The notes under the pieces were generated by a model. That model saw only the letters and a list, made by a program, of their open reading frames with translations, was not told where the DNA came from and did not search any database. From positions 124,001 to 188,000 of the forward strand of contig NZ_JAGJCB010000006.1 in assembly GCF_017814435.1 (NCBI RefSeq): a stretch of 64,000 nt of DNA. Direction: 5' to 3'. The translations under genes and the position numbers were made by a program. Positions 1,091 to 50,572 of the stretch are shown here, piece after piece. The stretch comes from Mariniflexile gromovii (GTDB taxonomy: Bacteria > Bacteroidota > Bacteroidia > Flavobacteriales > Flavobacteriaceae). Numbering within the stretch: position 1 is the first letter of the stretch; each line of letters begins with the position of its first letter.

Positions 1091-2842
1091 TTAATTCTGT
1101 TTTAATGTTACTTCTTTCAAATTAATAGTATGCCATTTTCCAGCTACGGGCATTAAAGAGAACTCATATTTACCAGCTTTATCAATATTGAAATCACCTA
1201 ACTCTACGGATTTAAAGCGTTTTAAATTTTCGCCACTTGCAGGAATTTTTACGGTTTTTGATTGTCCATTTAGGGTCACCATTATTTCAGTTTCCTTATT
1301 TCCAGAATAGCCTGCAACAACGTTTAAACTGCCTGGTTTATCAACTTCAAATGACCAATAAACACGTGCTGTTTCGCTGTCCCAACTTCCTACGCAATCT
1401 AAATGATCATCATATTGTGCACCGGGACCTTGTAAGTTTTCATATTGTGCTCTAACCGCTGGCAAGGTTACAATACCTGTTTCATCTTGACCCAGAGGTT
1501 TTTGAGGCAAGGCGTTGGGCATTTCCTTTAATTTTAAAACAATTACAGGTACTACGCTATCTGGTGCTTCACCGGTTAATTGCACTTGAATACCATCTTC
1601 AAAAGCATTGGTTTTAAACGTTCTTTTTTTATTAGCAAGTAAATAACAGGCTTCTACATTATTTTTAAGTCTTATTGGTAAGGAAGCGCCATCTTTCCAA
1701 TCGTAAACATGTAGATATAACAAACCTTTATTGTCAACGGTTTTCATGGTAATTCTACCCCACTCTGGAATATTGCTGGTTGGGCTTGCCTGCGTGCCGT
1801 AAATAGCTTCACTGTTTTCACGCATCCAGCCTCCAATAGCTTTTAAACGCTCGGTAGCTTCTGTTCTTAAAGTACCCTCACGTGTTGGACTCACATTCAA
1901 TAAGAAGTTACCTCCTTTACTACTTTGGTCAATTAAGTCGCGGATTAAAGTTTGAACCGAGTTAAAATTGTTATCATCGCTACGGTATCCCCAACTTCCA
2001 CTAATTGGTTTGCATAATTCCCAATATTTTGCTTCTGGTTGGTATCTTGGTCCGTTTCTTTCAAAGGTTTTATGATCGCCTGGGTAATCATCGCCCAAAC
2101 GATCGTTGGTGATAATTCTTGGTTGTAATGCGGTGGTGATATGATGTAAACTATCTACGACAGATTTGGTCATAGCTCGTGGCGTATCCCACCAAAAAAT
2201 GGCAATGGAGCCATATTCTGTTAATAGTTGTTTTACTTCCGGAAGCGCTTTTTCATATACATATTCGTCGCTACTTACACGCTTTAAATCTTTATCCCAA
2301 TTGTTTCCTAAACCACCTGGATGGTGCCAATCTTGAGCCTGTGAGTAATAAAATCCAAATTTAATCCCTTGTTCTTGACACGCTTTTGCTAATTCCTTTA
2401 ACACATCGCGTTTAAATGGTGTTGCATCAACAATATTATAATCGCTTGCTTTAGAATCGAACATTGAGAATCCATCATGGTGTTTTGCTGTAATCACCAT
2501 ATATTTCATACCGGCTTGTTTTGCCAAAGCAACAAATTCTTTAGCATTGAATTTTTCCGGATTGAATTCATCTGCAAATTTTTCATACTCCGCAATTTGA
2601 ATTCTACCTTTGTTCATAATCCACTCCGCACTATTGGTTTGGGCTTCACCTTTATAAAAACCTGCAGGTACGGTATAAATTCCCCAATGGATAAACATAC
2701 CAAAACGAGCTTCTTCCCACCAAGCCATGCGCTCTTTATCTGAAATCTCTTTTGTTTTTGTTAATTCAGGCTTCACAACTTTTTGCGCACATGCCGAACC
2801 AAAAACCAATACAACTAATACCCCACTAATGATTCTTTTCAT
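1091..2842 (-). CDS. Alpha-L-fucosidase, GH29, with C-terminal beta-sandwich
   Basis: This 583-residue exported enzyme should release terminal alpha-L-fucose from oligosaccharides. The signal peptide ends GSACAQ; cleavage after ACA, or lipidation at C18, are both possible. GH29 hallmarks are WWEEARFGMFIHWGIYTVPAG (about 41-61, split here by reading), KHHDGFSMF (120-128) and SIAIFWWDTP (212-221), where D219 is the predicted nucleophile. Residues about 460-583 form a separate domain containing YDDHLDCVGSWD and ending in a beta-rich stretch, probably a carbohydrate-binding or accessory sandwich. The gene is divergent from susC and carries a copy of the 30-bp PUL motif 113 bp upstream. It is the first gene of a short leftward unit with the partial hydrolase. 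Confidence 0.93.
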   Translation of the reverse strand: MKRIISGVLVVLVFGSACAQKVVKPELTKTKEISDKERMAWWEEARFGMFIHWGIYTVPAGFYKGEAQTNSAEWIMNKGRIQIAEYEKFADEFNPEKFNAKEFVALAKQAGMKYMVITAKHHDGFSMFDSKASDYNIVDATPFKRDVLKELAKACQEQGIKFGFYYSQAQDWHHPGGLGNNWDKDLKRVSSDEYVYEKALPEVKQLLTEYGSIAIFWWDTPRAMTKSVVDSLHHITTALQPRIITNDRLGDDYPGDHKTFERNGPRYQPEAKYWELCKPISGSWGYRSDDNNFNSVQTLIRDLIDQSSKGGNFLLNVSPTREGTLRTEATERLKAIGGWMRENSEAIYGTQASPTSNIPEWGRITMKTVDNKGLLYLHVYDWKDGASLPIRLKNNVEACYLLANKKRTFKTNAFEDGIQVQLTGEAPDSVVPVIVLKLKEMPNALPQKPLGQDETGIVTLPAVRAQYENLQGPGAQYDDHLDCVGSWDSETARVYWSFEVDKPGSLNVVAGYSGNKETEIMVTLNGQSKTVKIPASGENLKRFKSVELGDFNIDKAGKYEFSLMPVAGKWHTINLKEVTLKQN

Positions 2843-2955
2843 ACAAACTTCAATTTAACTTTTCAATTAATTTAGCTTAACATAAAGATGATTTCAACCT
2901 CCTTTACAATACAGTTTAAGCAAATACAATTTTAAAAACTACTACTGTCTTATTG

Positions 2956-2985
2956 TATAAATTATAAATCATTCCATATGAATTA
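2956..2985 (-). promoter_or_regulatory. Candidate PUL operator, site 1 (facing GH29)
   Basis: Read on the gene strand the site is TAATTCA, 7 bp, then TGATTTATAATTTATA. It fits the consensus TRATTYA, 7 bp, TGATTYATANTTTATA shared with three other sites in this locus. The first and last half-sites (TAATTCA and TAATTTA) are 21 bp apart, two helical turns, as expected for a dimeric AraC-type DNA-binding domain. It ends 113 bp before the GH29 start codon. Binding by the nearby hybrid regulator is inference. Confidence 0.65.
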
Positions 2986-3071
2986 TGGTGTGTTTTATAT
3001 TTTTTGGATATTTTTCTAAAGAGAGTTCTGCATGTTGCGTTTCTTTTCGGTAAAATCGAATAAATGAGCTA

Positions 3072-3101
3072 TAATTTATAAGAATTGATTTATAATTTAT
3101 A
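3072..3101 (+). promoter_or_regulatory. Candidate PUL operator, site 2 (facing susC)
   Basis: The plus strand reads TAATTTA (3072-3078), 7 bp, TGATTTATAATTTATA (3086-3101). It is a full match to the consensus built from the other three sites, in the same orientation relative to its gene. A 12-bp direct repeat TATAATTTATAA starts at 3070 and again at 3091, exactly 21 bp apart. The site ends 158 bp before the susC start. Confidence 0.65.
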
Positions 3102-3259
3102 ATTAGCAAAAAATATTATATCTAAAATTGCCTAACAACTAATAAGATGTTTTCTACTTCTAGTGTCACCAATTGTAATAATGTTTTTTGAGTCAATACT
3201 TATTACCACACTACTAACTGAAAACTTGTTAATTTATTAAATAAACTAAAACAAAATTT

Positions 3260-6200
3260 ATGATGAAACAAACACACAATCAGACACGTCTGAAAAATTT
3301 CAAAAGCCTATTTTGGATGATAGGCTTATTTGTATGCTTTATAACCACCAATGGTTATGCTAACGCTACAAAAGATCAAAACAGAACTATAACAGGAAAA
3401 GTCATTAGTGCTGATGACAACATGGGTATTCCCGGAGTTAATGTATTAGTTAAAGGAAGTAATACAGGGGCCGTAACCGATTTTGATGGGAATTACTCAA
3501 TTAATGTTCCAACTACCAACTCTGTATTGGTTTTCTCTTATATTGGTTTTAAATCAAAAGAAGTAACTGTAGGTAACAATACAACCATTAATGTAACATT
3601 AGAAGCTGATGTAGCTGCTTTAGATGAAGTTGTTGTAGTTGGATTTGGTTCTAGAAAGAAAGAATCTTTAACAGGTGCCATCGAGCAAGTAACCTCTGAG
3701 GTTTTTCAAGATAGAGCTATAACTAATACAGCCCTAGCTTTACAAGGGCAAACACCGGGCTTGGTGGTTACTAGAAATTCAGGAAGACCAGGTAATGATG
3801 ATATTGGTTTAAAAATTAGGGGAGCAACTTCAGTTAATGGTGGTAGTCCGCTAATAATTATTGATGGCGCACCTGTTTTTGATGACAGTGAATTTTATCA
3901 AATGAACCCTGATGATATAGAATCTATCAGTATACTTAAAGATGGGTCTGCCGCTATATATGGTTCTAGAGCTGCAAATGGTGTTATTTTGGTTACTACT
4001 AAAAAAGGTAAAGGAAAATTAACAGTTGAATATAATGGTAATACTAGATTTAATACACTAGGGCTTCGTGCGCCAGTAATATCCATGCAAAATTATGGTA
4101 AATTATGGTTGGAAGCTGTAGAGCAAGACGGTACAAATGATTATTGGGGCTGGAAATCAACAGAAAATGCGCAAAGAATGGCCAATGGTGAAGCAGGGTA
4201 TTATGAAACAAATTTTTGGGGAACTATTTATTTAGCACCATCAGATAGATATCTTGAATTGTATGGGCCAAATACTGGAACCCAACAAACCTTAAGTCTA
4301 TCAGGAGCTTCAGAGAGCGCAAGGTATCGTGCATCAGTAGGCTATGCTAACAATCAAGGTGCATTAAAAACTGCTTATGATGGCGCTAAGCAATATAATA
4401 TAAGGTTAAACACAGATTTTGATGTAACTGAAAAGTTTAATGTAGGCGTGGGCATCACATTTCAACGTGGTGTTACATCATCACCTTCTTCACAATTGCA
4501 ACAACGATTGGTTTCGAATGACCCCCCTCTTTTTCCTTCCAAAAATCCACTAGGACAATGGTATGCTAATTTTGGAATTACTGGGGGTGGTACAAACTCA
4601 ATTGCAGGAACTACCGATGGAGGTAGAGATGAGACTACCGAAGACTTAACAAAAATATCCTTGAATGGTACCTACGATATAGGTTATGGTTTTAGCATTA
4701 CTGGTAATGCCACTTATAATCAAATATCTTCCAGGAATGATAAAACCCTACTAACGGTTCCTCAATACGATTGGGAAGGTGCACTTGCTAAAAATCCTAT
4801 TAATAGCAGGTCGAGTATTGAAGTTGAAAATATCAGAAAATCATATCAAACCTACGGAGGGTTTTTAAATTATAAAACAACAATAAATAAACATACAATA
4901 GAAGGTATGGTTGGTCTAACCGCAGAATTAAATAATTACGATAGAGTATGGGCAAGAAGGTATGATATCCCTACCGGAGGACCCTATGACTTGAATGTAG
5001 CCACTGGTCTTGAGGATAACGAAGGTAATCAATACCAAGAAGGTCTATATTCTCAATTGACGAGAGTAAACTACGGTTTTGATGAAAGGTATTTATTAGA
5101 ATTAGTAGGTCGTCGAGATGGTTCTTCTAGATTTGATAAAGGGTTCAAGTATTCAACATTTGGAAGTGTATCTGCAGGCTGGAACATCCATAAAGAGACA
5201 TTCTTAGAAAACTTTGATCAGTTGAGTAATCTAAAACTACGTGCTAGTATAGGAACCACAGGAAATCAAGCAGGTATAGGTCGTTATGATTATGTTTCAA
5301 CCATAAGCCAAGGAACAACCGCTTTTGGTGCTTCACCTAGTTTGTATCCAACTGCTAACGTAAGTTCTATTACAACTAATTTGCGTACATGGGAAGAGGT
5401 TGAATTGAAAAATATAGGATTGGATTTTGGTTTTTTACAAAATAGACTTACGGGTGCTATAGATTTATTCGAAAAAAACAACAGAGGCATGTTAATACCT
5501 GTTGAGTATCCACAAACATTAGGAGGAAATGCTCCAACTACCAATTCTGGTCATTTAAGAACTAAGGGATGGGAAGTTGCTTTAAACTGGAGAGATACCA
5601 AAGGTGATTTTAGTTATAATATTGGAGTGAATTTAAGTGATAACAACAACAAGCTAATTTCTATGGAAGGTCAAACCACTGGAAATTACGGTTTGGTTCA
5701 AACTCGCGTAGGTTATCCCATAAATTCTTATTTTGCATATGAAACTGACGGTTTATTCCAAACACAAGCAGAGGTTGATGCTTACTATGATACTTATGGA
5801 GGTGCAGGTGAGATTCCAACAGAAGGTGGCACATCTGGACTTCGTATAGGAGATACTAGAAAAGTAGACTTAGATGGTAATGGTTACATAGATGATGTTG
5901 CACCCGAAGGTGGTGATGTAAAATTTGTAGGTGACAACCAATTACATTATGTGTTTGGTATCAATTTGGGTGCTCAATATAAAGGTTTTGATTTTACAGC
6001 ATTTTTTCAAGGAGCTCTAGAGCAAGTTGTATTTAGAGATGGTTTTCAAGCTTATCCTTTTGCACTTGTTTGGACAAACCAAACAGACGCTTATTTAGGT
6101 AAAACATGGACACCAGAAAATACGGGTGCTACTTACCCTAGGTTAACTACTAATGGTACTAGGTCTGGCTGGAACTGGCGTTATAATGATATTATACAGC

Positions 6201-6463
6201 AAGACAATAAATATATTCGTCTTAAAACAATTGTATTGGGATATACCTTACCAGAGAGTGTTACAAAAAAGTTGTCTATGGATAAAATACGTGTTTATTT
6301 TTCTGGTAATGATTTATTTGAGTTTTCTTCTGTAAAAGATGGCTATGATCCAGAATCTGGCAGTGTACCAACAAGTGTTGCAGGTCCTGATCCTTCAACT
6401 AGTAATAGAGAAATCTATCCATTTCAAAGAACTATGGCTTTCGGAGTTAATTTAACATTTTAA
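3260..6463 (+). CDS. SusC-like TonB-dependent outer-membrane glycan transporter
   Basis: This 1067-residue protein is the TonB-dependent porin of a SusCD glycan importer. After a signal region (to about residue 36) comes a carboxypeptidase-D-regulatory-like domain (about 42-116, TITGKVISADD and DFDGNYSINV). A TonB-box-like stretch LDEVVVVGFG (121-130) follows, then a plug domain with GSAAIYGSRAANGVILVTTKKG and a long beta-barrel ending MAFGVNLTF with a terminal Phe. It moves oligosaccharides across the outer membrane using TonB energy. It is 8 bp upstream of the susD gene and preceded by PUL motif site 2. The start is ATG at 3260; the second Met at 3263 is equally possible. Confidence 0.96.
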   Translation: MMKQTHNQTRLKNFKSLFWMIGLFVCFITTNGYANATKDQNRTITGKVISADDNMGIPGVNVLVKGSNTGAVTDFDGNYSINVPTTNSVLVFSYIGFKSKEVTVGNNTTINVTLEADVAALDEVVVVGFGSRKKESLTGAIEQVTSEVFQDRAITNTALALQGQTPGLVVTRNSGRPGNDDIGLKIRGATSVNGGSPLIIIDGAPVFDDSEFYQMNPDDIESISILKDGSAAIYGSRAANGVILVTTKKGKGKLTVEYNGNTRFNTLGLRAPVISMQNYGKLWLEAVEQDGTNDYWGWKSTENAQRMANGEAGYYETNFWGTIYLAPSDRYLELYGPNTGTQQTLSLSGASESARYRASVGYANNQGALKTAYDGAKQYNIRLNTDFDVTEKFNVGVGITFQRGVTSSPSSQLQQRLVSNDPPLFPSKNPLGQWYANFGITGGGTNSIAGTTDGGRDETTEDLTKISLNGTYDIGYGFSITGNATYNQISSRNDKTLLTVPQYDWEGALAKNPINSRSSIEVENIRKSYQTYGGFLNYKTTINKHTIEGMVGLTAELNNYDRVWARRYDIPTGGPYDLNVATGLEDNEGNQYQEGLYSQLTRVNYGFDERYLLELVGRRDGSSRFDKGFKYSTFGSVSAGWNIHKETFLENFDQLSNLKLRASIGTTGNQAGIGRYDYVSTISQGTTAFGASPSLYPTANVSSITTNLRTWEEVELKNIGLDFGFLQNRLTGAIDLFEKNNRGMLIPVEYPQTLGGNAPTTNSGHLRTKGWEVALNWRDTKGDFSYNIGVNLSDNNNKLISMEGQTTGNYGLVQTRVGYPINSYFAYETDGLFQTQAEVDAYYDTYGGAGEIPTEGGTSGLRIGDTRKVDLDGNGYIDDVAPEGGDVKFVGDNQLHYVFGINLGAQYKGFDFTAFFQGALEQVVFRDGFQAYPFALVWTNQTDAYLGKTWTPENTGATYPRLTTNGTRSGWNWRYNDIIQQDNKYIRLKTIVLGYTLPESVTKKLSMDKIRVYFSGNDLFEFSSVKDGYDPESGSVPTSVAGPDPSTSNREIYPFQRTMAFGVNLTF

Positions 6464-6471
6464 TCCAAGTT

Positions 6472-8283
6472 ATGAAGAAAATAATGAATAATTTAAAAAC
6501 AAAACAAATGAAAAAAATACTAATTTTATTTTCAGCAGTAATTCCATTACTCATGGGCTGCGAAAGTACTTTTTTAGATCTTGACCCCCTAGATGCGACA
6601 ACAGAGTCTGCTTTTTTTAATTCGCCTGATGATTTTGAAGCGGCAGCTAATAGTTTCTATAGAGGTTTACAATCACATTCGCCAAAAAATGCGTATGGTG
6701 GTGGTTCATGGAATAGCGGATTTGCTGATATCACTGATTTTGGAACAGATTTTACAGCTTGGGTGCAACCAGAGGGACAAGGTGCCACTACAGTTGGGAA
6801 TACAGATATCTATTGGCATAACTGGTATGGCTACCTTAGAGAGGTAAATATTCTATTAAAAAAGGCAGAAGAGTATAACGGTAACCCCTCAGATATTTCT
6901 AGACATGTAGCAGAGGCATACTTTTTTAGAGCATGGCATCATTTTTCTTTATTGAGACGTTTTGGTGGGGTGCCATTGGCAACTAAACTATTTGACGTAG
7001 GTGAAGAAGCACTTTATGGCCCTAGAAATAGCAGATATGAGGTAGTGGAACAAATATTGGCCGACTTAGATTTGGCTATGGCAACAGGCTTGCCAGACGT
7101 CATTCCCGACACCGAAATAGGAAAAATAGGAAAGTATGCGGCACAAGCCTTCAAAGCCGAGGTTTTGTTGTATGAAGCTACCTGGGAAAAATATGTTGGT
7201 ACTGATACCGATGGTGATGGTATTACCGTTGGTGCTGGTTCTGCAAAACCTTCAGGATATCCTACTGTAGATGCTATGCTTGATAGCGCTGTGCAAACTG
7301 CAAAATCTGTTATGGATAACGGAGGATATGAAATATGGAATCATAATGATGTACTAGACAATTTAAGCTATCGCCATTTATTTATTCTTGATGATGTAAG
7401 TAACAATGCTGGACTAGGAAAGTCTACCAATAAAGAATACATTATACAAAGTGTTTTTGACGGTGTGCTGCAAACACCTGGAGGTAATTTTTCTCATACC
7501 ACTGGTGGTAGAAATGCACCAACTCGTCATATATTAGATTTATTTTTGAGTTTAGATGGATTACCTATTGATAAATCGCCTCTATTTCAAGGCTATTATT
7601 TAATGACGGATCAATTTATTGATAGAGACTATAGAATGATATCCTATTTTGGAGAGAATCTTCCTGTCGGAGGTGGGTCTTTACCTATGACTGGAATTAG
7701 CAGCACAAGTTTATCACCAATAACTAATAGAAAGTTCAGAGCATATTCTTACCAAGACGGACGGGAAACATACAATTACCCACAATTACGTTATGCAGAA
7801 GTATTATTAACATATGCTGAAGCTTTATACGAAAGAGACGGAGCGATCTCGGATGCTGATTTAAACCTTTCTATCAATATACTGAGAGATAGAGCTGGGG
7901 TAGCGCATTTAACCAATGCTTTTGTTACTACAAATAACTTAGATATGTTGGAAGAAATTAGAAGAGAAAGATCTGTAGAATTATATATGGAAAATAATCG
8001 TTACAATGATTTGAAACGATGGGGTATTGCAGAAGAAGTCTTAGGACAAGATCTTATTGGTGAAGTCATTGAAGGAACCGAATATGAAACGAATCCCGCA
8101 TTGTATAATCCAGCTGCTTATATTTATGGTACCAAGAAAGTACAAACTGGCAAAGGTCTTCTTGATGCCGTAATTATTGATCCTGAAAATGTGAGAAACT
8201 TTAGTCAGAAAAACTATTTATTCCCTATACCTTCAGCACAGATTACGTTAAATCCAGCATTGAAACAAAACCCTGATTATTAA
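6472..8283 (+). CDS. SusD-like glycan-binding lipoprotein (RagB/SusD family)
   Basis: This is the surface lipoprotein partner of SusC that captures the glycan. Counted from 6472 it is 603 residues. The lipobox LLMGC ends at C30, which is long for a lipoprotein signal; starting at the internal ATG at 6508 (MKKILILF) would place the Cys at position 18, so 6508 is the more natural start. Family features include FFNSPDDFEAAANSFYRG, AEAYFFRAWHHFSLLRRFGGVPL, LRYAEVLLTYAEALYERDG, EEIRRERSVELYMENNRYNDLKRWG (in two parts) and the C-terminal LFPIPSAQITLNPALKQNP. It follows susC directly, so the two are co-transcribed, and a strong hairpin with a T-run follows. Confidence 0.95.
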   Translation: MKKIMNNLKTKQMKKILILFSAVIPLLMGCESTFLDLDPLDATTESAFFNSPDDFEAAANSFYRGLQSHSPKNAYGGGSWNSGFADITDFGTDFTAWVQPEGQGATTVGNTDIYWHNWYGYLREVNILLKKAEEYNGNPSDISRHVAEAYFFRAWHHFSLLRRFGGVPLATKLFDVGEEALYGPRNSRYEVVEQILADLDLAMATGLPDVIPDTEIGKIGKYAAQAFKAEVLLYEATWEKYVGTDTDGDGITVGAGSAKPSGYPTVDAMLDSAVQTAKSVMDNGGYEIWNHNDVLDNLSYRHLFILDDVSNNAGLGKSTNKEYIIQSVFDGVLQTPGGNFSHTTGGRNAPTRHILDLFLSLDGLPIDKSPLFQGYYLMTDQFIDRDYRMISYFGENLPVGGGSLPMTGISSTSLSPITNRKFRAYSYQDGRETYNYPQLRYAEVLLTYAEALYERDGAISDADLNLSINILRDRAGVAHLTNAFVTTNNLDMLEEIRRERSVELYMENNRYNDLKRWGIAEEVLGQDLIGEVIEGTEYETNPALYNPAAYIYGTKKVQTGKGLLDAVIIDPENVRNFSQKNYLFPIPSAQITLNPALKQNPDY

Positions 8284-8321
8284 AAATATTATATAATTTT
8301 GAGTTAGTAATTTAGTTTTTA

Positions 8322-8360
8322 AGCAGCTGTAAACCCTCAAGTTTACAGCTGTTTTTTTTC
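8322..8360 (+). terminator. Rho-independent terminator after susD
   Basis: An 11-bp perfect stem, CAGCTGTAAAC (8324-8334) with GTTTACAGCTG (8341-8351), has a 6-nt loop and is followed by an 8-T run. It lies about 40 bp past the susD stop on the same strand. Confidence 0.9.
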
Positions 8361-8704
8361 GAAAATAATCCTCAATAAAATGAAGAAAGCTTTCAGGCTT
8401 TTTTTCAAACTAAATCAATATAATAAGGATATTACCCCCACCAAATAAAAAACAAGCACTTGCTTAGGCATAAACTAAACCTATAAAACAAAACACTTTA
8501 TTGTTATAAAAACTATATCTATGAAAGAATATTTAAAGTCTCTAAGGAGTCCTATTTTTAAAACAAAACACAATTTACTACCATCGTATCCAAACCCCCA
8601 GTTACTTAGCTCTAATACACCTATTTTAGTTCATTTGAAACTAAACTAAGAAATCATCAATTAAACTAAATAAAAGGTTTAAAATATTAATTAAGGTACC
8701 ATAG
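8361..8704. other. Non-coding gap between convergent susD and GH88 genes
   Basis: This AT-rich stretch lies between two facing terminators. A 42-codon frame at 8521-8649 lacks any recognisable feature and was not called. I see no RNA gene or repeat here. Confidence 0.6.
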
Positions 8705-8734
8705 AAAAACCCTTTAAAACATAATTTTAAAGGG
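8705..8734 (-). terminator. Rho-independent terminator after GH88 gene 1
   Basis: The stem CCCTTTAAAA (8710-8719) with TTTTAAAGGG (8725-8734) has a 5-nt loop. On the minus strand it is followed by TTTTT. It lies 52 bp past the stop of the leftward GH88 gene. Confidence 0.82.
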
Positions 8735-8786
8735 CATCTCAAAATGAAACTAAGTTTCATAAACTAACTAAAATAACAAACTAACT

Positions 8787-10010
8787 CTAAATATTTTTAT
8801 TTTCAATTTTTCTTAATCTCAACAAGGCTTCCATAAAATAATAATCGGCATAAATAATTGGCACATCTATCTCAGAATTTTTAGGAAAATGTCCTGTAGA
8901 GTGCAATAAAAGTGCATCATTGGTATCACCGCTTAAATAAGTGTTAGAACTTAAATGGGTAATTAAATCTTTAGCTGCATTGAAATACTTTTCTTTTAAC
9001 TTTTCATCTTTTAATTGTTCAGATAATTCCAACATACCACAAGCTACAACTCCAGCTGCAGAAGCATCCTTTGGTGAATTAGGGATTTTAGGATCATCAA
9101 AATCCCAATAAGGAATGCCGTCTTCTGGTAAACGCTCTATAAAATGGTCAGCTAATTTTTGGGCCGTTGTTAAGAACTCCTCTTTACCTGTTTCACGGTA
9201 AGACATTGCGAAACCATAAATTCCCCATCCTTGACCTCTGGCCCACATGGAGTCATCTGCATAACCTTGGTGTGTTTTACCTTCAATAAATTCACCAGTT
9301 TTTTCGTCAAAACAAACAACATGAAAGATAGAATAATCTGGACGCACTAAACGTTTCATAGAAACTTCAGCATGACTTACGGCCATGTCGTATAGACTTT
9401 TATCACCTCCATTTTTAGCTGCCCAAAAAAGAAGCTCTAAATTCATCATATTATCAATAATGGTGTTGTGCTTAAACTCATGTTTCATTCCTGGCCAAGA
9501 CAAAATAGTACCTGCTTTAGGATTAAAAAGTGTCGCTAAAGTATCAGCCGCAGCCAATAAAACTTTTTTGTACTCTTCATTACCTGTAAGTCTATAGCCA
9601 TTACCATAACTACAGTAAACCATAAAACCCACATCATGGTTATCAGCTGGTGTATAAGCAATGGTTTTTAAAGGTGCAGTGAATTTTTCGGCTCCAGCCT
9701 TCAATGTTTCATCACCTGAATATTCATAAGCATACCAAAGTACCCCAGGCCAAAAACCAGAACACCAATCTCTTACATCTACAAAATTCCATTCTTTATG
9801 TCCTTTAGTAATATTTCTTGGAAAACTATCGGCATATTTTAAACTTTCTAAAACATCCTTAATCTTCAATACGCTTTTATCAAGCACAACCTCTTCATTA
9901 GTTTTTGTGGTTACCAATGCTGTATCAACATTTTCCTTTTTGTTTTGATTATTACAAGATAACAGGAATGTTATACATATAACCACTGAAGTAAGTTTAA
10001 AAATCCTCAT
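8787..10010 (-). CDS. GH88-type unsaturated glucuronyl hydrolase lipoprotein (paralog 1)
   Basis: This 407-residue protein should hydrolyse the 4,5-unsaturated uronic acid left at the non-reducing end by polysaccharide lyases. The signal ends in the lipobox LLSC with C19 as the lipidation site. The alpha/alpha-barrel motifs include DWCSGFWPGVLWYAYEY, NHDVGF (predicted catalytic D126) and HNTIIDNMMNLELLFWAAKNG (D186 in its middle), matching the two essential Asp of GH88. YADDSMWARGQGWGIYGFAM and DGIPYWDFDDP also fit. A close paralog of the same length lies at 13920-15143. The gene has a PUL motif copy 110 bp upstream and its own terminator, so it can be transcribed separately from the lyase gene. 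Confidence 0.93.
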   Translation of the reverse strand: MRIFKLTSVVICITFLLSCNNQNKKENVDTALVTTKTNEEVVLDKSVLKIKDVLESLKYADSFPRNITKGHKEWNFVDVRDWCSGFWPGVLWYAYEYSGDETLKAGAEKFTAPLKTIAYTPADNHDVGFMVYCSYGNGYRLTGNEEYKKVLLAAADTLATLFNPKAGTILSWPGMKHEFKHNTIIDNMMNLELLFWAAKNGGDKSLYDMAVSHAEVSMKRLVRPDYSIFHVVCFDEKTGEFIEGKTHQGYADDSMWARGQGWGIYGFAMSYRETGKEEFLTTAQKLADHFIERLPEDGIPYWDFDDPKIPNSPKDASAAGVVACGMLELSEQLKDEKLKEKYFNAAKDLITHLSSNTYLSGDTNDALLLHSTGHFPKNSEIDVPIIYADYYFMEALLRLRKIENKNI

Positions 10011-10120
10011 ATACTCTCTTTGTTTTTATTCTACTTGTTCTATAAATTTTTAAAAAAATACATATCTAAATTCTAGCTGTATGTTACTATGCAAGTATAT
10101 TAATACTTGTTTATATTGGA

Positions 10121-10150
10121 TATAAACTATGAATCATTTTCAATAAATTA
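10121..10150 (-). promoter_or_regulatory. Candidate PUL operator, site 3 (facing GH88 gene 1)
   Basis: On the gene strand the site reads TAATTTA, 7 bp, TGATTCATAGTTTATA, and it ends 110 bp before the start codon at 10010. It aligns without gaps to the site before GH88 gene 2: TATAAAnTATGAATCA is identical at 15 of 16 positions on the plus strand, and ACCC occurs at the same offset further out. Confidence 0.68.
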
Positions 10151-10272
10151 ATACCCTTTTAAGATCAAAACCCTACTGTTTACTAGCTAAATCTTTTATT
10201 AACTAAATTTTTTCACGTTTTATTTGATGGCATTTGGCTTGTGTTAAAATCAAAAGAAAAGAGCATTTTAAA

Positions 10273-12807
10273 CTAGTTTTCAGTTTGCATCATTTCTGAT
10301 TGTTCAGATTTAATTAGTTTCCCATTTACAAACTCTTTTATAGCTATCTGAACATTTTCGTTTTGCATATTTGAAATCTCAATAGTTTGTTTCCGTCCAT
10401 CTTTTAGATATACACTTAATTCATTTGAATTATTGGATTCTATTTTTAAAATTGTACTTTCACCTTTATAAGGCTCTATAACATTTAAAAATTGCACTTC
10501 TTTTTCATTAACGCGAACACCATACGTTCTTCTATCCGGATTATTTCTGATATCTCTTTGCTTACCTCCATTGGGGTAATTACATAATAAAACATCTGCC
10601 TTTTTAGGCCAAAGTGTGTGTACGTCTAGTTTCATCCCGTTTTCATCAAACTCAACTTTGGTTTCGCTTTTTGAAGTATACCATTGGGCATTTTCAAAAT
10701 ATTTATATGGCGATGTGTTTACTGTACTTAATTTATCTAAAGTAGAACCTTTCTTTTTAGCACCTACAATATTTTTGAAACCAACAGGGTGCATTAACCA
10801 ATCGTAATTGTGTTTTTGATCGGATTTCATATAATCTGCAAGAACTACATAATCATCAGTTACAACGGATAGACGTCTTTGTTGAATGGGTTTGAAGTTA
10901 GGGTCGTAATCGGTATCATCCCAAGGTGGAAACTTATCTGCATTCCAAGTTGGTATTTTACGCCATCTGGCATTGGTTTCAACTACAGATGCCTGCATTA
11001 ATTCACCTTTATAAAACAACAACAGTTCAGATGGTACGGCTTCTTGTTGTAATTCGTCTACAACAACCATGTTATGGGTGGCCGATGTTTGTACACATTC
11101 TTTATATCCAGGATTTCCATAACCAAACCACACCATTTCAGTTCCAAAATATTTATGCCCAAAACGGTCTAAAGCTACTAAACTGGCTCTATCAAACTGT
11201 CCGTGCCAGCCACCATGTGTACCATATTTTAAAAAAGCTTGAATTTGATTTTCTGGTGTATTAACTTCCGCCTGCGATCGTAAAGCCACTAAACCAATAT
11301 TTGGCGCATAGACAGATTCTGCTCGTGGGTCTTCAGTTTTTGGTAGTTCAGGTACACCGTACATTAAAGACACCCAAGAATCGCGTTTGGTTTTACTAAT
11401 TACCCATGCCAAATCGGGGTTTTTATATTCACGATAAGCTAATTCATAAAATTCATTCGGTTCTTTTAAATCGGAATCGTTGGTAGATACCAAATATGCA
11501 TTTTCATCCATAAAGGGTATATATGGAGTTACCATATCTTCTAAACCTCTGGTGTTTTTTCCGGTTGGCCCCCAATTATCAAACTTCATTCCCGTAAACC
11601 CTTCTTTGACATTATCAAAATCTTTACTTTTAAATTTAGCAGGAAAACGTCTGTGGTATAAATCCAATCCGTAATTTTTGAATGCCTGTGCCACTAATGT
11701 ATAGCGTTGCACCACCAAATAACAATAGTTTCCCGTACCTTCAAACCACCATCCATCTGCCATAACACCCTTACCTATTTGGTCTGCCATTCCACCATCA
11801 GCTTCTGTTAAATACTCTAATTCTGGAATATCTTGCAAAAACAGCGCTACAAAAATAGCTCCTGCATTGGCACTGGCTTGATGATTCATAATCCCTAAAC
11901 CATCCATGTGTTTTTTATTCAATGCTAAGTAGTAACGGAACGTGGCTTCTATGTTTTCTTTATCTTGTTTAGAAAATTCAGATTCATTAAAAATAATATC
12001 ACAAGCTGCAGAAAGAAACAAAAAGAAATTACCTTCATGCACTTGTACGCCATTTGTTGCTGCTCCTATAGATAAATAGCCTTTTTCTTTATCGCAAACC
12101 GCTTTTATTAAAGCTACGACTTTGTTTTTATAATTTACATTGCCTGTTAATTTGTAAGCCAAGGCCAATTGAAAAGCTTTTTCTCCATCGCTCGCACTAT
12201 AATTTAAACTGGACCATACTTTTGTTGGGCGTGGTTTGGTAACAATTTCACGTTCTGGAAACTTGAAACCATCCAGTTCCTTGAGCATGTTATCTAAATT
12301 TTGCTTTGCCCAATCGTATTTTGCTATCTTTTGTTTAGCTTCTTCAATAACAGGGTTTGTAACTAATAAAAACGGATGTGGTTTACTACGAACTGTTATG
12401 AATTCTAAGGTTTCTAATAATTCTTCTTTTTCGTCTTTGATTAAAATGATACTCGATTCGTGGCCTCCTAAAGGCATTCTATCGCTTACTATTACAGACA
12501 ATGTTCCATTATAAATAGCATGAGGTTCTAAAGTTACTTTTGAAATGCTTAAACTGTTAATGCATGCCAACTCGCGTGGATTTTTAACACTTAAATAATA
12601 GGTTTCTGAATTTTGAGAAGCATTTTTTAATTGAAAAGTGTACGATATTGTATCATTTGCTTTAGCTGCTCTGGTTTGTAAAGCACTGCTTAATATGCTT
12701 TCTATTACATTTGGCTTAGCGGAAAGTGTAGTTCCAGTAGCTATAAAAAATAGGAGTAAAAAAAGATGCTTTGGTATTTTATTGAATTTTGAAGTGTTAT
12801 TCTTCAT
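10273..12807 (-). CDS. Heparinase II/III-like polysaccharide lyase
   Basis: This 844-residue secreted protein has a signal peptide ending at about residue 30 (TTLSA). A beta-rich segment (about 35-140) is followed by an alpha/alpha toroid with IMNHQASANAG (N308, H309) and DGWWFEGTGNYCYLVVQRY (Y361, Y363), the arrangement of catalytic Asn/His and Tyr in heparinase II/III and alginate-lyase folds. The C-terminal beta-sandwich has GTHGGWHGQFDRASL (H531, H535) and TSATHNMVVVDE (H578). It probably cleaves a uronic-acid polysaccharide by beta-elimination, giving the substrate for the GH88 enzymes. The PL family (for example PL35, PL37 or PL40) cannot be fixed by eye. The gene lies between the two GH88 genes on the same strand. 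Confidence 0.82.
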   Translation of the reverse strand: MKNNTSKFNKIPKHLFLLLFFIATGTTLSAKPNVIESILSSALQTRAAKANDTISYTFQLKNASQNSETYYLSVKNPRELACINSLSISKVTLEPHAIYNGTLSVIVSDRMPLGGHESSIILIKDEKEELLETLEFITVRSKPHPFLLVTNPVIEEAKQKIAKYDWAKQNLDNMLKELDGFKFPEREIVTKPRPTKVWSSLNYSASDGEKAFQLALAYKLTGNVNYKNKVVALIKAVCDKEKGYLSIGAATNGVQVHEGNFFLFLSAACDIIFNESEFSKQDKENIEATFRYYLALNKKHMDGLGIMNHQASANAGAIFVALFLQDIPELEYLTEADGGMADQIGKGVMADGWWFEGTGNYCYLVVQRYTLVAQAFKNYGLDLYHRRFPAKFKSKDFDNVKEGFTGMKFDNWGPTGKNTRGLEDMVTPYIPFMDENAYLVSTNDSDLKEPNEFYELAYREYKNPDLAWVISKTKRDSWVSLMYGVPELPKTEDPRAESVYAPNIGLVALRSQAEVNTPENQIQAFLKYGTHGGWHGQFDRASLVALDRFGHKYFGTEMVWFGYGNPGYKECVQTSATHNMVVVDELQQEAVPSELLLFYKGELMQASVVETNARWRKIPTWNADKFPPWDDTDYDPNFKPIQQRRLSVVTDDYVVLADYMKSDQKHNYDWLMHPVGFKNIVGAKKKGSTLDKLSTVNTSPYKYFENAQWYTSKSETKVEFDENGMKLDVHTLWPKKADVLLCNYPNGGKQRDIRNNPDRRTYGVRVNEKEVQFLNVIEPYKGESTILKIESNNSNELSVYLKDGRKQTIEISNMQNENVQIAIKEFVNGKLIKSEQSEMMQTEN

Positions 12808-12853
12808 TTTGGTTTTATTTTTTTTTGACTGCTTACTATTACTTATAATCTGA

Positions 12854-12955
12854 TGTCACCTCGAGCCTTTCGACTGCGCTCAAGATAAACTAAAGTCGAG
12901 ACCTCATTATTACTCAAATTAATATAATAACCTCTCGACTGCGCTCGAGGTGACA
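12854..12955. repeat. REP-like fold-back repeat (TCGACTGCGCTC family), copy 1
   Basis: Perfect 13-bp inverted arms, TGTCACCTCGAGC (12854-12866) and GCTCGAGGTGACA (12943-12955), enclose further copies of CGACTGCGCTC. The GC-rich element stands out from the AT-rich background. It lies between the lyase gene and the nucleoside-hydrolase-like gene. The same core occurs at 35500-35556. Confidence 0.8.
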
Positions 12956-13037
12956 CAAAAATATTTCAGAGTAAACTTGAATTGATATAAATGGTACAAA
13001 CAGTTAATTTTATTAATTCTGCATTGAAGTTTGAAAC

Positions 13038-13907
13038 CTATTTCACTGCACTTTCAATAATAGCTTTAGCATCATCTGGATTTGTTTTTTGTTTACCTGT
13101 TAACAAATAGATAATCATACCAGCATCAGAAGGATCAAAATCACCTTTTTTAATACACGTTAATTGTCTAGAGTATAACCAATCTAATTGTTTTTGATTT
13201 TCTGCGGAATTTTCACGAATAGGAGATGTTTTAATCCAATCGAATTGTTCTTTAGGCGCTTTCAAACCTTCGTAATCTGTACCTCCGTTTTGATCAACTA
13301 TTCTATCTACGATAAGTCCTTTTGGTTCAAACTTTTCTTTTATTTCTTTCCATGTCCAACCTGAATGGTGTTCCCAATCATGCGGTTTGTCTGAATGGTT
13401 ATCGTTCCAGTTTGAATGGGAAATGATGCGAACGTATTTCAATTTAGAACTATTTGCCTTTTGAATAGCGCTCCCTACAACTTGCATGGGGCCTGCAGCA
13501 ACAATAGTTAAAGGATCTTTTTTGCTAGATTTATTAATTTCTTTGGTAATCGCGTTGATGGCCTTGGTTGAGTCCTGAACGGCTTCAATAAAATTTGATT
13601 TCTTAAAATTATAAATATCTTTTCCTTCTAAAGCACTTTTAAGCATTTGTTCTTTACCATCGCTTTTGTCGTGATTGCTCCCCCAAATATGGTCGCTAAA
13701 CGTATAAACAGTTAACTTATCCTGTAAATTTCTAGCTGCTAATAATGCCAAGGTTAATGGTGTTGCTGCCCAATCATCATGATCGTGCTCATTTCCATCG
13801 GAGCTTACTACAATTCTACCAATACTATAAGGAATGGTTTGCCCATAAAAAAAATGTGCGTTACTTAACAGAAAACATACACAAACAATGGTTTTAAAAT
13901 TTCGCAT
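13038..13907 (-). CDS. Secreted nucleoside-hydrolase-like protein of the PUL
   Basis: This 289-residue protein has a signal peptide ending about FFYGQ (residue 23). The first strand runs into an acidic cluster, VSSDGNEHDHDDWAATPL (D37, E40, D42, D44, D45), which resembles the DxxxDD calcium/ribose-binding loop at the N-terminus of nucleoside hydrolases. LTIVAAGPMQVV and the spread of later His and Asp residues are also compatible with that fold. Its reaction is unknown; hydrolysis of a glycosidic bond in a PUL product is inference. It starts 12 bp after the GH88 gene 2 stop, so the two are co-transcribed. I could not match it to a named family with certainty. Confidence 0.6.
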   Translation of the reverse strand: MRNFKTIVCVCFLLSNAHFFYGQTIPYSIGRIVVSSDGNEHDHDDWAATPLTLALLAARNLQDKLTVYTFSDHIWGSNHDKSDGKEQMLKSALEGKDIYNFKKSNFIEAVQDSTKAINAITKEINKSSKKDPLTIVAAGPMQVVGSAIQKANSSKLKYVRIISHSNWNDNHSDKPHDWEHHSGWTWKEIKEKFEPKGLIVDRIVDQNGGTDYEGLKAPKEQFDWIKTSPIRENSAENQKQLDWLYSRQLTCIKKGDFDPSDAGMIIYLLTGKQKTNPDDAKAIIESAVK

Positions 13908-13919
13908 AGTGATTAGATT

Positions 13920-15143
13920 TTAATTGTTGGTTTGAACCACTTTTTTATTGTTGGATTTTAATTTTTCCAATCGCATTAATGCTTCCATAAAATAATAATC
14001 GGCATAAATAATTGGCACATCAATTTCTGAACCTTTAGGATGATGCCCTGTTGAATGTAACAATAATGCATCATTTGTTTTTCCACTTAAATACTTATCA
14101 GAAGAAAGAATTTCCACAAATTTTTTGGCGGCATTGGTGTACTTTGTTTTTAATTTTTCATCTTTCAACACGTTAGCCAACTCCAGCATGCCACAAGCTG
14201 CAATGGCTGCAGCTGAAGCATCTTTGGGTGCATTTGGTATTTTAGGGTCGTCAAAATCCCAATACGGAATACCATCTTCAGGTAAACGGTTTAAAAAGTG
14301 GTCTGCTAACTTGATAGACGTATTTAGAAAATCTTGGTTGCCAGTTTCTCGGTAAGCCATTGCAAAGCCATAAATACCCCAAGTTTGTCCACGTGCCCAC
14401 ATAGACTCGTCTGCATATCCTTGGTGGGTATGTCCTTTAATAAATTCACCTGTTTTATCGTTAAACTCGCCTAAATGGTATGTAGCACTATCTGGTCTCA
14501 CAATATGTTTCATGGTTACTTTTGCATGACTTTCCGCAATATTATAAAGTTCTTTATTTTCTCCATTTTTAGCAGCCCAGAACAACAACTCTAAATTCAT
14601 CATATTATCAATAATGGTGTTGTGTGGGTAAATCTTTTTCTTTGAAGGCCAAGACTGAATGGCTCCAACTATAGGATTATATAAAGTAGCTAAAGTATCG
14701 GCTGCTGCCAACATGATTTCTTTGTAGGCTTCATTTCCTGTTAACCTGTAGCCATTTCCAAAACTGCAATATACTTGAAACCCGATGTCGTGATCATCGG
14801 CTGGTGAATAGGCAATGGTTTTTATGGTTTCTGTAAACTGTTCTGCTGCTTTTTTAATTTCTGCATCATTAGTATATTCATAACCATACCATAAAACACC
14901 TGGCCAAAAGCCGCTACACCAATCTTTAACACCTACTAATTTCCAATGTTGTTTCCCTTTTGGAATATTTCTTGGGAAACTATCAAAGCTATTTAAAGAT
15001 TTTAATGCTTCTTTTATTTTAACAGCATTTTGGCCAAGTACTGTTTCAACGTCCGTTTTTGGTGTTTTCTTTTTTTCGGCAGCGCAACCTGCAAAAAGAG
15101 TAGATACTAAAAAACCAACACAAATAATTTTTAAAATTCTCAT
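13920..15143 (-). CDS. GH88-type unsaturated glucuronyl hydrolase lipoprotein (paralog 2)
   Basis: This 407-residue paralog of the gene at 8787-10010 has the same expected reaction. The lipobox LFAGC gives C20. Catalytic-type motifs are DDHDIGF (D119) and NTIIDNMMNLELLFWAAKNG (D179 in the first part), with DWCSGFWPGVLWYGYEY and YADESMWARGQTWGIYGFAM also conserved. The two paralogs are highly similar across their length but differ most in the N-terminal linker and near FNDKTGEFIKG, so they may act on differently linked or sulfated unsaturated disaccharides. It is the first gene of a leftward unit with the nucleoside-hydrolase-like gene and has a PUL motif copy 97 bp upstream. Confidence 0.93.
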   Translation of the reverse strand: MRILKIICVGFLVSTLFAGCAAEKKKTPKTDVETVLGQNAVKIKEALKSLNSFDSFPRNIPKGKQHWKLVGVKDWCSGFWPGVLWYGYEYTNDAEIKKAAEQFTETIKTIAYSPADDHDIGFQVYCSFGNGYRLTGNEAYKEIMLAAADTLATLYNPIVGAIQSWPSKKKIYPHNTIIDNMMNLELLFWAAKNGENKELYNIAESHAKVTMKHIVRPDSATYHLGEFNDKTGEFIKGHTHQGYADESMWARGQTWGIYGFAMAYRETGNQDFLNTSIKLADHFLNRLPEDGIPYWDFDDPKIPNAPKDASAAAIAACGMLELANVLKDEKLKTKYTNAAKKFVEILSSDKYLSGKTNDALLLHSTGHHPKGSEIDVPIIYADYYFMEALMRLEKLKSNNKKVVQTNN

Positions 15144-15240
15144 ATTACAATTCTTTAAATGAAAAAATACTACTACCCAAGTAAGTATTTTTCAAAGTTA
15201 AGTTATAACTACAAGTATAAAAACTCTATGTTGGAAATAC

Positions 15241-15270
15241 TATAAAATATGAATCAAATCAGGTAAATCA
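15241..15270 (-). promoter_or_regulatory. Candidate PUL operator, site 4 (facing GH88 gene 2)
   Basis: On the gene strand the site reads TGATTTA, 7 bp, TGATTCATATTTTATA. It lies in the 176 bp between the regulator stop and the GH88 gene 2 start. Confidence 0.66.
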
Positions 15271-15319
15271 ACACCCATTTATGTTATAATTTCTACCTAA
15301 ATTAAGGTTTATTGATTAA

Positions 15320-18300
15320 TTATGATTCTTCTTTCTTGTTTTGTTCTAAGTACTCGCTAGGCGTCATATTATACAATTCCCGGAACGTTTTACCGAAATA
15401 AGCAGCTGAATTAAACCCAGACATGTGCGTAACTTCTTTTATGGTATATCCGCCTTTAAGCAATAATTCTGAAGCATATTTTAAACGGATAGTACGTATA
15501 AAATTACTTGGATTTTGCCCTGTAATAGATTGTATTTTTCTGTAAAACTGAGATCTACCAATACCTATATCTTTTAGTAAATGCTCTAATTTAAAATCAA
15601 TATCACTAATGTTATCCAAAATAACTTTGGTTGTTTTTTCAAGAAATGCTTCATCTATAGAATTACTTGTTACTTCATTTGAACTTATAACAGCTCCTAA
15701 TTTTGAAAATTTCTCTCTAATAATTCGCTTCGATTCCAACAAATTAGCAATTCGAGCTTTTAAAACATTCACATTAAATGGCTTACCTAAATACCCATCA
15801 GCCCCTGTTTTATAACCTTCAATCCGATCCTCTTCCAAAGCTCGTGCTGTTAATAATATTACTGGTATGTGGCAGGTTTCAAATTCTGATTTTATTTTTT
15901 TACATAATTCAAAACCATCCATTTTGGGCATCATCACATCACTAACAACAATTTCCGGGTAATGTTTTAAAACTTTTTCCAGACCTTCTTCACCATTAAC
16001 AGCTTCAATAATATTATAACGCCCTTTTAGTTCATTTCTTAAATGCTCTCTAAGTTCTTTATTGTCTTCTACAATTAACAACTTTGGCAAATCACCTTTC
16101 CCAGATATATCTTCTTTATCCTCGTACATCTGGGTAGCATCGGATATTAGCATATCATACTCTGCAGATTTCATGGAGTTTATTAAAAATTCATCCTTTA
16201 CATTGTCTACAACACTAGACTCTGCTGTTTTATTAAATGGGATTCTAACCACAAATTTACTGCCCTTATTATACTGGCTTTCCACAAAAATTTCGCCTCC
16301 ATGTATCTCTACCAACCCTCTGGTATAATTTAAACCAATTCCGGTTCCTGTTTTGTTGGGGTCTACATTATAAAAACGGGAAAATATTTTTTTAAGTTGC
16401 TCTTTATCAAGACCTATACCTGTATCTTCCACAACTATTTCAATGTAGGATTCTAATTTTTTTCTATCCTGCTTTAAAAAATTTAAATTTCTGTTTTTCT
16501 CTGTAAACTTATTTACCGATACTTTTATTTCTCCGCCACTTTCTGTGAATTTAACAGCATTTGAAATTAAATTGGTAAGTATCTTTTCCATTTTATCAAA
16601 ATCGAAAAAGGTAAACAATTGCTCGGAAGTGGATGAAAAACTATAATCGATCCCTTTTTTGGAGACAACTTCTTTAAAAAGAGCATAAATATCATGACTA
16701 AACTTGATAATGTCTCCTTTTTGAACCTGAAGCGGTGCCATACCTACTTCCATTTTTCTATAATCCAACAACTGATTTACCAGATACAACAAGCGTCTTG
16801 CACTTCGTTGAATAGACAATGCTGATGTTCTTACAATTTCACCATCATTATAGCCCGTTAACAACTTATCTAATGGATTTAAAATTAAAGTTAGGGGCGT
16901 TCTAAATTCATGGGACACATTAATGAAAAATTCCAGTTTCATCTGGTCAAACTCACGTTCTTTTTCACTATTTACACTTTCGGTATAATACTTTTGTAAA
17001 AACCATAATAACACTCCCGCAACTATTATATAAAGGGCGTAGGCACCCCAAGTTTTCCAAGGTGGTGAATTGATTGTTATTTTAACTGATGATACTGGGG
17101 CCGAATCCCAATCACCATCAACCGAAGCTTTTACGTTAAAAGTATAGGATCCTGGTTGTAAAGTAGAGTAATTAATTGTCCTATTAGTTCCAGCAACAAC
17201 GTACTCGTCATTAACGCCCTCCATTTTATAAGCATACTTAACTTGCTCTTGATTTTGGTAATGAAGTGCTATAAAATCAAATGATAAATTGGACTGATTA
17301 TACTTTAATATAATATCGTCTGCTTCTGAAAGTGATTTTGTTAAAGTATAACCACTATTTATTTTTTCACCAACTTTAACATACTTGTCGTTTATTTTTA
17401 ACCCGGATATGGTTGGGGTAAGTTTTGCTGAAGAAGTAATAGTAATATCTTTAGGGTTAAAAATATTAAAACCATTAATACCACCAATTAAAATACGACC
17501 ATCTTTTGTTCTTTCTATCGATTTACTTTGGTATTCCATTCCTTGTAAACCATCGTGTGTGTTGAAGTTTTTAAATTGATTGGTTTTAGGGTTTAAAAAC
17601 GACAAGCCACTTCGGGTAGTTATCCAAAAATTATGAAAAGCATCTTCTTTTAACGCTGTAATTAAATTATTGGGCAATCCATCTTGTGTGAAATAAGATT
17701 TTAGTAAGTTTAGATTGGAGTCTAATTTATAAATACCAATATCGGTCCCTAACCAAATGTTATGTAAATGATCTTCTTCAATGTAGTTTATTCGGTTTCC
17801 TGCAATACCTTCAATATTAATATCATTAAATTGAATTTCGCTAGGGAATTCACTCTTCAACTCATTAAGATTGATATAATTTAACCCTAAAGTAGTTCCA
17901 ACTAGCAACCTTTCTTTTGAATCAATAAATAGTGAAAAAACGAAATTACTTAGCAACCCTTCTGTATTACTATTTCCTATTTTGTAATGATGAAACTTAT
18001 TGTTTTTTGTATCCAGTAAATCCAACCCTTCATCTCTAAGTCCTAACCAAACTCTACCTTTTTTATCTTCTACACCTGTCCAAACCGAATTTTGACCAAT
18101 GGTAGAATCATCAAATTCGTTGTGTAAATATCTTTTACTTATATATGTTTCTGGATTAAATTTATTTAATCCACCATCTAAGGTACATACCCAAATATCG
18201 CCATCTTTATCTTCAAAAGTATACATCATTCTATTGGAGCTTAAAGATTTTGGGTCATTCGGGTTATAGCTAAATGATTTAAACGTTTTATCCTTTTCAT

Positions 18301-19832: not shown

Positions 19833-19917
19833 GCGCACGTGGCGGAATTGGTAGACGCGCCAGCTTGAGGGGCTGGTGTTCGCTTAGAATGTGGAAGTTC
19901 GAGTCTTCTCGTGCGCA
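19833..19917 (+). tRNA. tRNA-Leu (anticodon GAG)
   Basis: The 85-nt gene has a 7-bp acceptor stem, GCGCACG paired with CGTGCGC, followed by discriminator A. The D-arm is GGCGGAATTGGTAGACGC. The anticodon arm is CCAGC, loop TTGAGGG, GCTGG, giving anticodon GAG. A class II variable arm and the T-arm GTTCGAGTC follow. The CCA end is not encoded. Confidence 0.96.
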
Positions 19918-19956
19918 CTTTTCTTCATAAAATCAATTAAAAATTTCCTTCTAAAA

Positions 19957-50427: not shown

Positions 50428-50572
50428 CATTTTAGTTTATTAACGAATATTTTATCATTTCATCTGAATTAATTAAACCTTTAATAATTTGGTAAGTCTA
50501 TTTTAATTAAAATAGCATACTTTAGTTTGTAGCCAAAACTCAAACAAACCAATATTCTTAATTCATTTGAAA

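Follow-up and report, generated by a model that had tools for sequence, protein, structure and literature searches.

The question raised by this locus is which regulator reads a short element that recurs upstream of polysaccharide-degradation genes, and how far the set of genes under its control extends. The element lies in a 64-kb stretch of the genome of Mariniflexile gromovii (4.28 Mb in 52 contigs), which we refer to as the window (C49:124001-188000), where it precedes a GH29 gene, a susC gene and two GH88 genes in the neighborhood of a gene for a hybrid two-component system (HTCS) regulator. Flavobacteriaceae from algal and aquatic habitats frequently have large numbers of HTCS regulators, and to our knowledge few targets of these flavobacterial regulators are known; our HTCS search of relatives gave as many as ten scored matches in a genome. 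The repeated element is most likely the predicted docking site of the nearby sugar-sensing regulator. Because the sites are exact, hold a fixed register and spacing, lie upstream of genes and co-occur with one regulator clade, we consider them very probably to be operators of this HTCS, predicted to activate a large and partly scattered polysaccharide-digesting gene set.

A 37-bp direct repeat upstream of polysaccharide utilization genes

A preliminary description of this DNA had proposed a 30-bp bipartite pattern at four places, and its coordinates and strands are borne out by matches without mismatch at 2956-2985 (-), 3072-3101 (+), 10121-10150 (-) and 15241-15270 (-). With up to 3 mismatches allowed, the window holds five matches, where 100 shuffles hold 0.02 on average; the additional match, at 36619 with 3 mismatches, was taken as chance. 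The sites are thus real, but the length of the unit needed correction. Alignment of the four sites gives an operator of 37 bp, composed of two 16-bp direct repeats (approximately TGRRYYATAATTTATA) that are separated by a 5-bp gap and recur with a period of 21 bp. The 7 bp missing from the 30-mer, approximately TGRRYYA, form the 5' part of the first repeat, and the middle TGATTYA opens the second repeat and does not constitute a half-site of its own. The 21-bp distance formerly read as the separation of two outer half-sites is therefore correct as a distance, but it is the period of a direct repeat with a 16-bp unit. Across 15 sites in the same genome, described below, conservation runs from an AAA just 5' of the 37-mer to TTTATA.

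The operator before the GH29 gene (2956..2992, -) reads CACACCATAATTCATA-TGGAA-TGATTTATAATTTATA, its first repeat deviating most from the consensus at the 5' end, and its predicted target is an alpha-L-fucosidase gene at 1091..2842 (-). The operator before susC (3065..3101, +) reads TGAGCTATAATTTATA-AGAAT-TGATTTATAATTTATA and would serve the susC and susD genes at 3260..8283 (+); it scores E 1e-10 in the genome-wide profile search, to whose training set it belongs. Pattern match and alignment place the other two at 10121..10157 (-), before a GH88 gene at 8787..10010 (-) that is its predicted target, and at 15241..15277 (-), before the second GH88 gene and directly 3' of the regulator gene.

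A -7-like box at a fixed distance from the operator

At all four window sites, a -7-like box (TANANTTG) begins exactly 21 bp past the operator. It takes the form TAAAATTG after the GH29 operator (2927..2934, -) and the susC operator (3123..3130, +), and the form TATACTTG after the first (10092..10099, -) and second (15212..15219, -) GH88 operators. Over the 15 sites of this genome, which were picked by operator patterns only, 18 of the 21 columns that follow the operator carry little information (0.01-0.44 bits) and those at +15 to +17 a moderate amount (0.56-0.70 bits), and a conserved box then occupies +21 to +28, with TAnnnTTG at +21 in 10/15.

The same register recurs among relatives of the regulator. 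A 40-nt matrix trained on the operator part alone was scanned over 23 stretches from loci of the regulator clade. Its hits numbered 64 at a lower cut-off, overlapping ones counted separately, and the higher cut-off that we kept leaves 51 non-overlapping sites in 21 of the stretches. TAnnnTTG stands exactly at +21 in 34 of these 51 sites, and the remaining offsets from 0 to 37 hold it only at 20 (one), 22 (one) and 12 (two), the chance rate in clade upstream regions being 0.003 per position. Ten of the 23 stretches are not centered on a regulator and were mostly picked around hits of a profile that itself includes the box; in the 13 stretches selected by regulator position alone, every stretch has a site and the box is at +21 in 22 of 29 sites. 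A co-directional start lies within 400 bp of 43 of the 51 clade sites, and none of the 51 falls inside an open reading frame (ORF) of at least 200 aa.

If the box corresponds to positions -12 to -5, as the -7 box is taken here together with the sigma-A consensus TAnnTTTG and its variants given in PMC9723704, then the operator would cover -70 to -34 and end beside the expected -33 position. TTTG, a possible -33 element, occurs in the 8 bp directly following the operator in 0/15 sites of this genome and 4/51 clade sites, so a -33 element is mostly absent, and with it so scarce the promoters appear to depend on help. Of the 34 clade sites that carry TAnnnTTG at +21, 31 have A as the fifth base of the box, where the sigma-A consensus has T.

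The motif follows one regulator clade

The regulator (15320..19489, -; 1389 aa) carries on one chain a periplasmic propeller and Y_Y_Y sensor, a histidine kinase, a receiver and an AraC-type DNA-binding domain, the architecture of an HTCS. Its phospho-acceptor motifs are SHEFRTPL near 859 and DVMMP at 1184, and a single hydrophobic, transmembrane stretch spans 812-834. The full CHIP-DK motif is present, with TCHIPV in the receiver and the Asp of DEAF and the Lys of YRK 39 residues apart, the same spacing as between D1344 and K1383 in BT4124; the nearest solved sequence is the HTCS fragment 12aw. Among 59 other relatives, 8 have an orthologue with 53-88% identity; G003 and G004, which belong to these 8, have a second copy at 57%, and the next full-length match is at 36%.

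If this HTCS reads the element, then element and regulator should be found together. We ran the operator profile over 26 of the 59 relatives, hand-chosen to cover all eight with an orthologue, with 150 candidates scored per genome. Matches at E <=0.01 were present in 8/8 relatives with an orthologue (>=53% identity) and in 1/18 without (Fisher 6e-6, relatedness ignored). In these eight, all matches sit on the contig of the orthologue, which is trivial for the three genomes that consist of one contig. One such genome (G019; one contig, 100% complete) has matches also 1.0 and 1.4 Mb from the orthologue, those at 1.4 Mb standing before susC and GH88 homologues in a region that holds a GH29 homologue as well, and the sole other HTCS match at E <=1e-100 in this genome is at 3.36 Mb.

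A comparison of named HTCS loci, limited to the best 80 of at least 591 with up to 10 kb on each side of the regulator, agrees. All five loci whose regulator has at least 50% identity, from Flavobacterium fluviatile, F. seoulense, F. ajazii and two Maribacter, have matches at E <=0.01, and none of the other 75 has one up to E 1. Near the four other propeller-type HTCS genes of the M. gromovii genome, the best profile match is partial, at E 0.056. The link between the sites and the hybrid regulator, which the preliminary description had proposed, is thus supported at the level of sequence by both genomes and loci. The element shows the sequence and positional features of predicted HTCS operators, with two direct repeats that recur at about 21 bp and a place upstream of polysaccharide utilization locus (PUL) genes near the regulator, and it is kept with orthologous regulators.

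A predicted genome-wide regulon

In the whole genome, the 30-bp pattern matches exactly at 4 places and at 20 when up to 3 mismatches are allowed, versus 3 for the reversed pattern, and a longer pattern has 13 matches versus 0 for its reversed control. A sequence-only profile built from 15 sites was run over the genome, with 150 of 7402 candidates scored; the 15 training sites reach E <=6e-7, followed by C50:86045 at 8e-5, C50:69144 at 0.02 and then weaker matches. Many equally good matches in unrelated places were to count against the preliminary proposal; it was not refuted in this way, since after the 15 sites there is one at 8e-5, with everything further at 0.02 or above. Each of the 15 precedes an open frame of the same direction, and none is inside an ORF of at least 150 aa. 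The distance to the frame is 39-277 bp for 14 of them, and the fifteenth, near the end of contig C12, is followed after 118 bp by an open frame that continues past the contig end.

Ten of the strong sites are on C49, between 46 and 139 kb (over 93 kb), and the other five are on C12, C14, C28 (two) and C50. These unlinked sites support the earlier idea of a regulon independent of gene order, and the count of four has to be raised to at least 15. The run on C49 includes GH29, GH95, GH97, GH31, GH28, GH43 and GH88 enzymes, S1 sulfatases, a heparinase-like protein, esterases and a sugar transporter, according to a Pfam survey of 40 proteins (35 on C49, only part of the cluster's frames), 5 of which have no Pfam family. 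CBM6 proteins with a type IX secretion system (T9SS) tail are the targets of the C50 site and of the two C28 sites, and two of these three proteins have an alginate-lyase-type match. Since fucosidases, GH88 enzymes and sulfatases are among the targets, the gene set suggests a fucose- and uronate-containing sulfated glycan as substrate, although the families alone are insufficient to name the polysaccharide.

The best-scoring site of the genome, C14:11288 (L031), precedes a 308-aa protein whose sole recognized domain is a T9SS tail. Four weaker sites, C49:40932 (-), C49:59649 (-), C50:86045 (-, E 8e-5) and C50:95184 (-, E 0.1), each precede a co-directional frame and may be real, in which case the regulon would comprise about 19 sites; the remaining genome matches at E >=0.02 were treated as chance. 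A 37-bp site at a fixed promoter position makes target genes nameable from sequence, and unlinked targets that are missed by PUL-boundary methods, here the secreted CBM6 proteins on other contigs, become findable.

The predicted lyase unit and neighboring features

The second GH88 operator (15241-15277) is predicted to drive a unit at 10273..15143 (-) that consists of the GH88 gene, a 289-aa gene and an 844-aa lyase-like gene, whose product has an alginate-lyase Pfam match of 22.0 bits, just below the cut-off of 22.2. Neither the operator matrix nor the profile finds an operator before the lyase gene in the window. The arrangement in G003 runs operator, GH88, 289-aa-like gene, GDSL-type gene, lyase, one gene, operator, GH88, so that the order of the window unit is kept with one gene inserted and the lyase again has no operator of its own; in G004 the lyase is absent from the corresponding place. 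Gene order thus supports transcription of the lyase gene from the upstream unit, as had been supposed from the missing site. Against such read-through, the 230-bp gap before the lyase gene folds as a strong hairpin (z -3.6, equaled by 1/200 shuffles), which could reduce it. The hairpin in this gap (12808-13037), which separates the lyase gene from the 289-aa gene, is built on a dispersed inverted-repeat element with the core GAGCGCAGTCGARAGG, of which the genome has 16 copies, two of them within the gap.

Two further features of the window lie outside the units described so far. A tRNA-Leu(gag) gene is found at 19833-19918 (+), about 340 bp past the 5' end of the regulator gene. A second HTCS with an AraC-type domain, encoded at 57201-59999 (+) downstream of two very large ORFs (43164-48062 and 50567-55090), has TPR in place of the propeller sensor.

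Proposed mechanism and alternative explanations

If the sites are operators of the HTCS, then contact of the sensor with its sugar would lead the fused kinase to phosphorylate the receiver, and the AraC-type domains would be released after phosphorylation. Two of these domains could then bind side by side and in the same orientation on the two 16-bp direct repeats, whose 21-bp period corresponds to two helical turns, and the bound pair would touch RNA polymerase so that transcription starts at a promoter with a -7 box that departs from the sigma-A consensus and mostly without a -33 element. The targets would be the GH29, susCD and both GH88 units, six more promoters within the neighboring 90 kb, and genes on other contigs. 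Binding, control by phosphorylation and activation as opposed to repression are all inferred here, and so is the identity of start site, sigma factor and sugar.

Several observations weigh against this reading. The 15 genome sites were found with the preliminary pattern or a derivative of it, so their profile scores are not independent, and neither are orthologous sites in close relatives. One relative without an orthologue (G014) has a single weak match, at E 0.0025, and the operator matrix has one hit in 115 non-clade HTCS stretches, in L298, which comes from the orthologue-bearing relative G003. A diverged operator in G004 (L198:8715-8784, -; E 0.013) stands beside the 57%-identical paralogous regulator, and cross-talk among close paralogues is possible; the two regulators with their sites form a natural pair from which the residues that read particular bases could be mapped. 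TAnnnTTG is missing at +21 from 5/15 sites of this genome and 17/51 clade sites, and the strict sigma-A box TAnnTTTG is there in only 1/15 and 0/51; with the strict form nearly absent, the box does not fix the sigma factor, which may be an alternative one that recognizes TANNATTG.

The element might instead be the target of a different AraC-type regulator, as the genome encodes 37 AraC-type domains and direct repeats are a common target form of the AraC family. We consider this unlikely, since the motif follows the HTCS clade in both the genome and the locus comparison, across genera with differing neighbors, and since G003 and G004 likewise have a site just after the regulator gene, like that at 15241..15277 in the window; the co-occurrence comparison covered the HTCS orthologues. 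A little less likely still is that the adjacent HTCS binds mainly as a repressor. The operator end does adjoin the expected -33 position, and a repressing HTCS, BT2391, is mentioned in PMC11253607, but the same paper ties the CHIP-DK motif, present here in full, to DNA binding that is held back until phosphorylation, and TTTG, as noted, rarely follows the operator.

It is also conceivable that no dedicated regulator binds an operator here and that the sites represent shared AT-rich promoter sequence, perhaps for an alternative sigma factor that recognizes TANNATTG. In favor of this are the AT-rich composition and the consistent deviation of the box from TAnnTTTG, by the A in fifth position described above. 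However, a direct repeat with a fixed period would be unexpected for a sigma site, 17/18 relatives without an orthologue have no profile match, and the operator matrix finds 1 site in the 115 non-clade HTCS stretches (about 2.1 Mb) versus 51 in the 23 clade stretches, the latter partly chosen by hits; we regard this explanation as very improbable. The operator reading, with the HTCS at 15320-19489 as activator, accounts best for these observations.

We put forward a more far-reaching proposal tentatively, giving it somewhat less than even weight. HTCS activators may dock at one rigid position, with the operator edge at about -34, where they would replace the -33 element on a dedicated -7 box TANNATTG (A fifth, not T), and a 66-bp unit of operator and box may have been copied across unlinked loci of the clade to form a genome-wide regulon.

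Search for docking beyond the clade

At HTCS loci outside the clade, repeats with a period of 21 (>=11/16 matches) occur in 69/466 upstream regions, compared with 23 to 56 for other periods, and in a second non-clade set in 50/265, compared with 18 to 43. The second set gives a slight excess at 10/16 matches (104 versus 73 to 100) and none at 12/16 (12 versus 1 to 13). A stricter scan was swamped by tandem repeats and dropped. A paired-region scan of non-clade loci found scattered examples, L252 and L263 at 22 bp among them, and a phylum-wide fixed distance between operator and box was not separable from a reverse-strand control in these loci; we therefore claim docking for this clade only. 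If the same grammar holds in other HTCS clades, then their regulons would be readable from sequence alone. Fixed docking also makes testable where membrane-bound sensors meet RNA polymerase in this phylum.

Comparison with known systems

The closest functional parallel outside the phylum is the araI1-I2 site of Escherichia coli AraC, a direct repeat of half-sites of about 17 bp at 21-bp spacing, which adjoins the upstream promoter element. The window operator would work alike, as a direct repeat with 21-bp spacing near a promoter, whereas AraC is a small cytoplasmic sugar-binding regulator and the systems are unrelated.

Within the phylum, SusR-like operators, as presented in PMC3878776 (Ravcheev et al. 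2013), are also direct repeats before susC-type genes, but they have a spacing of 67 or 77 bp and belong to another regulator class, so that a SusR-type operator is ruled out here by the 21-bp period. The same paper predicts motifs for 16 HTCSs of Bacteroides thetaiotaomicron with direct repeats about 21 bp apart (mean distance 21 bp), one group of which, the alpha-mannan HTCS motifs, consists of two 16-bp sites and a 5-bp spacer, the 16+5+16 geometry found here. These predicted Bacteroides operators resemble ours further in their location before susC/D and enzyme genes close to the regulator, and some have distant targets as well. They differ in that the window operator is flavobacterial and has its own sequence, the 2013 motifs being compared by their description and not by logos, and in that the window sites add the exact 21-bp distance to a -7-like box.

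A fixed distance from operator to -7 box was not found stated in the parts of PMC3878776, PMC11253607, PMC11501099, PMC10994844, PMC7366714 and PMC12125979 that we could consult; PMC7366714 states that a -33 motif was not identifiable for Flavobacterium johnsoniae. A supplementary figure of PMC5061871, outside the present comparison, shows predicted HTCS sites together with -7 boxes, and no flavobacterial HTCS operator turned up in searches of an open-access library, judged on titles and abstract openings of the best-ranked papers. The operator type has thus been known since the 2013 prediction, and the window element is, by its sequence features, a further predicted HTCS operator; what is new is its register, its rigid docking to a -7-like box and the unlinked regulon.

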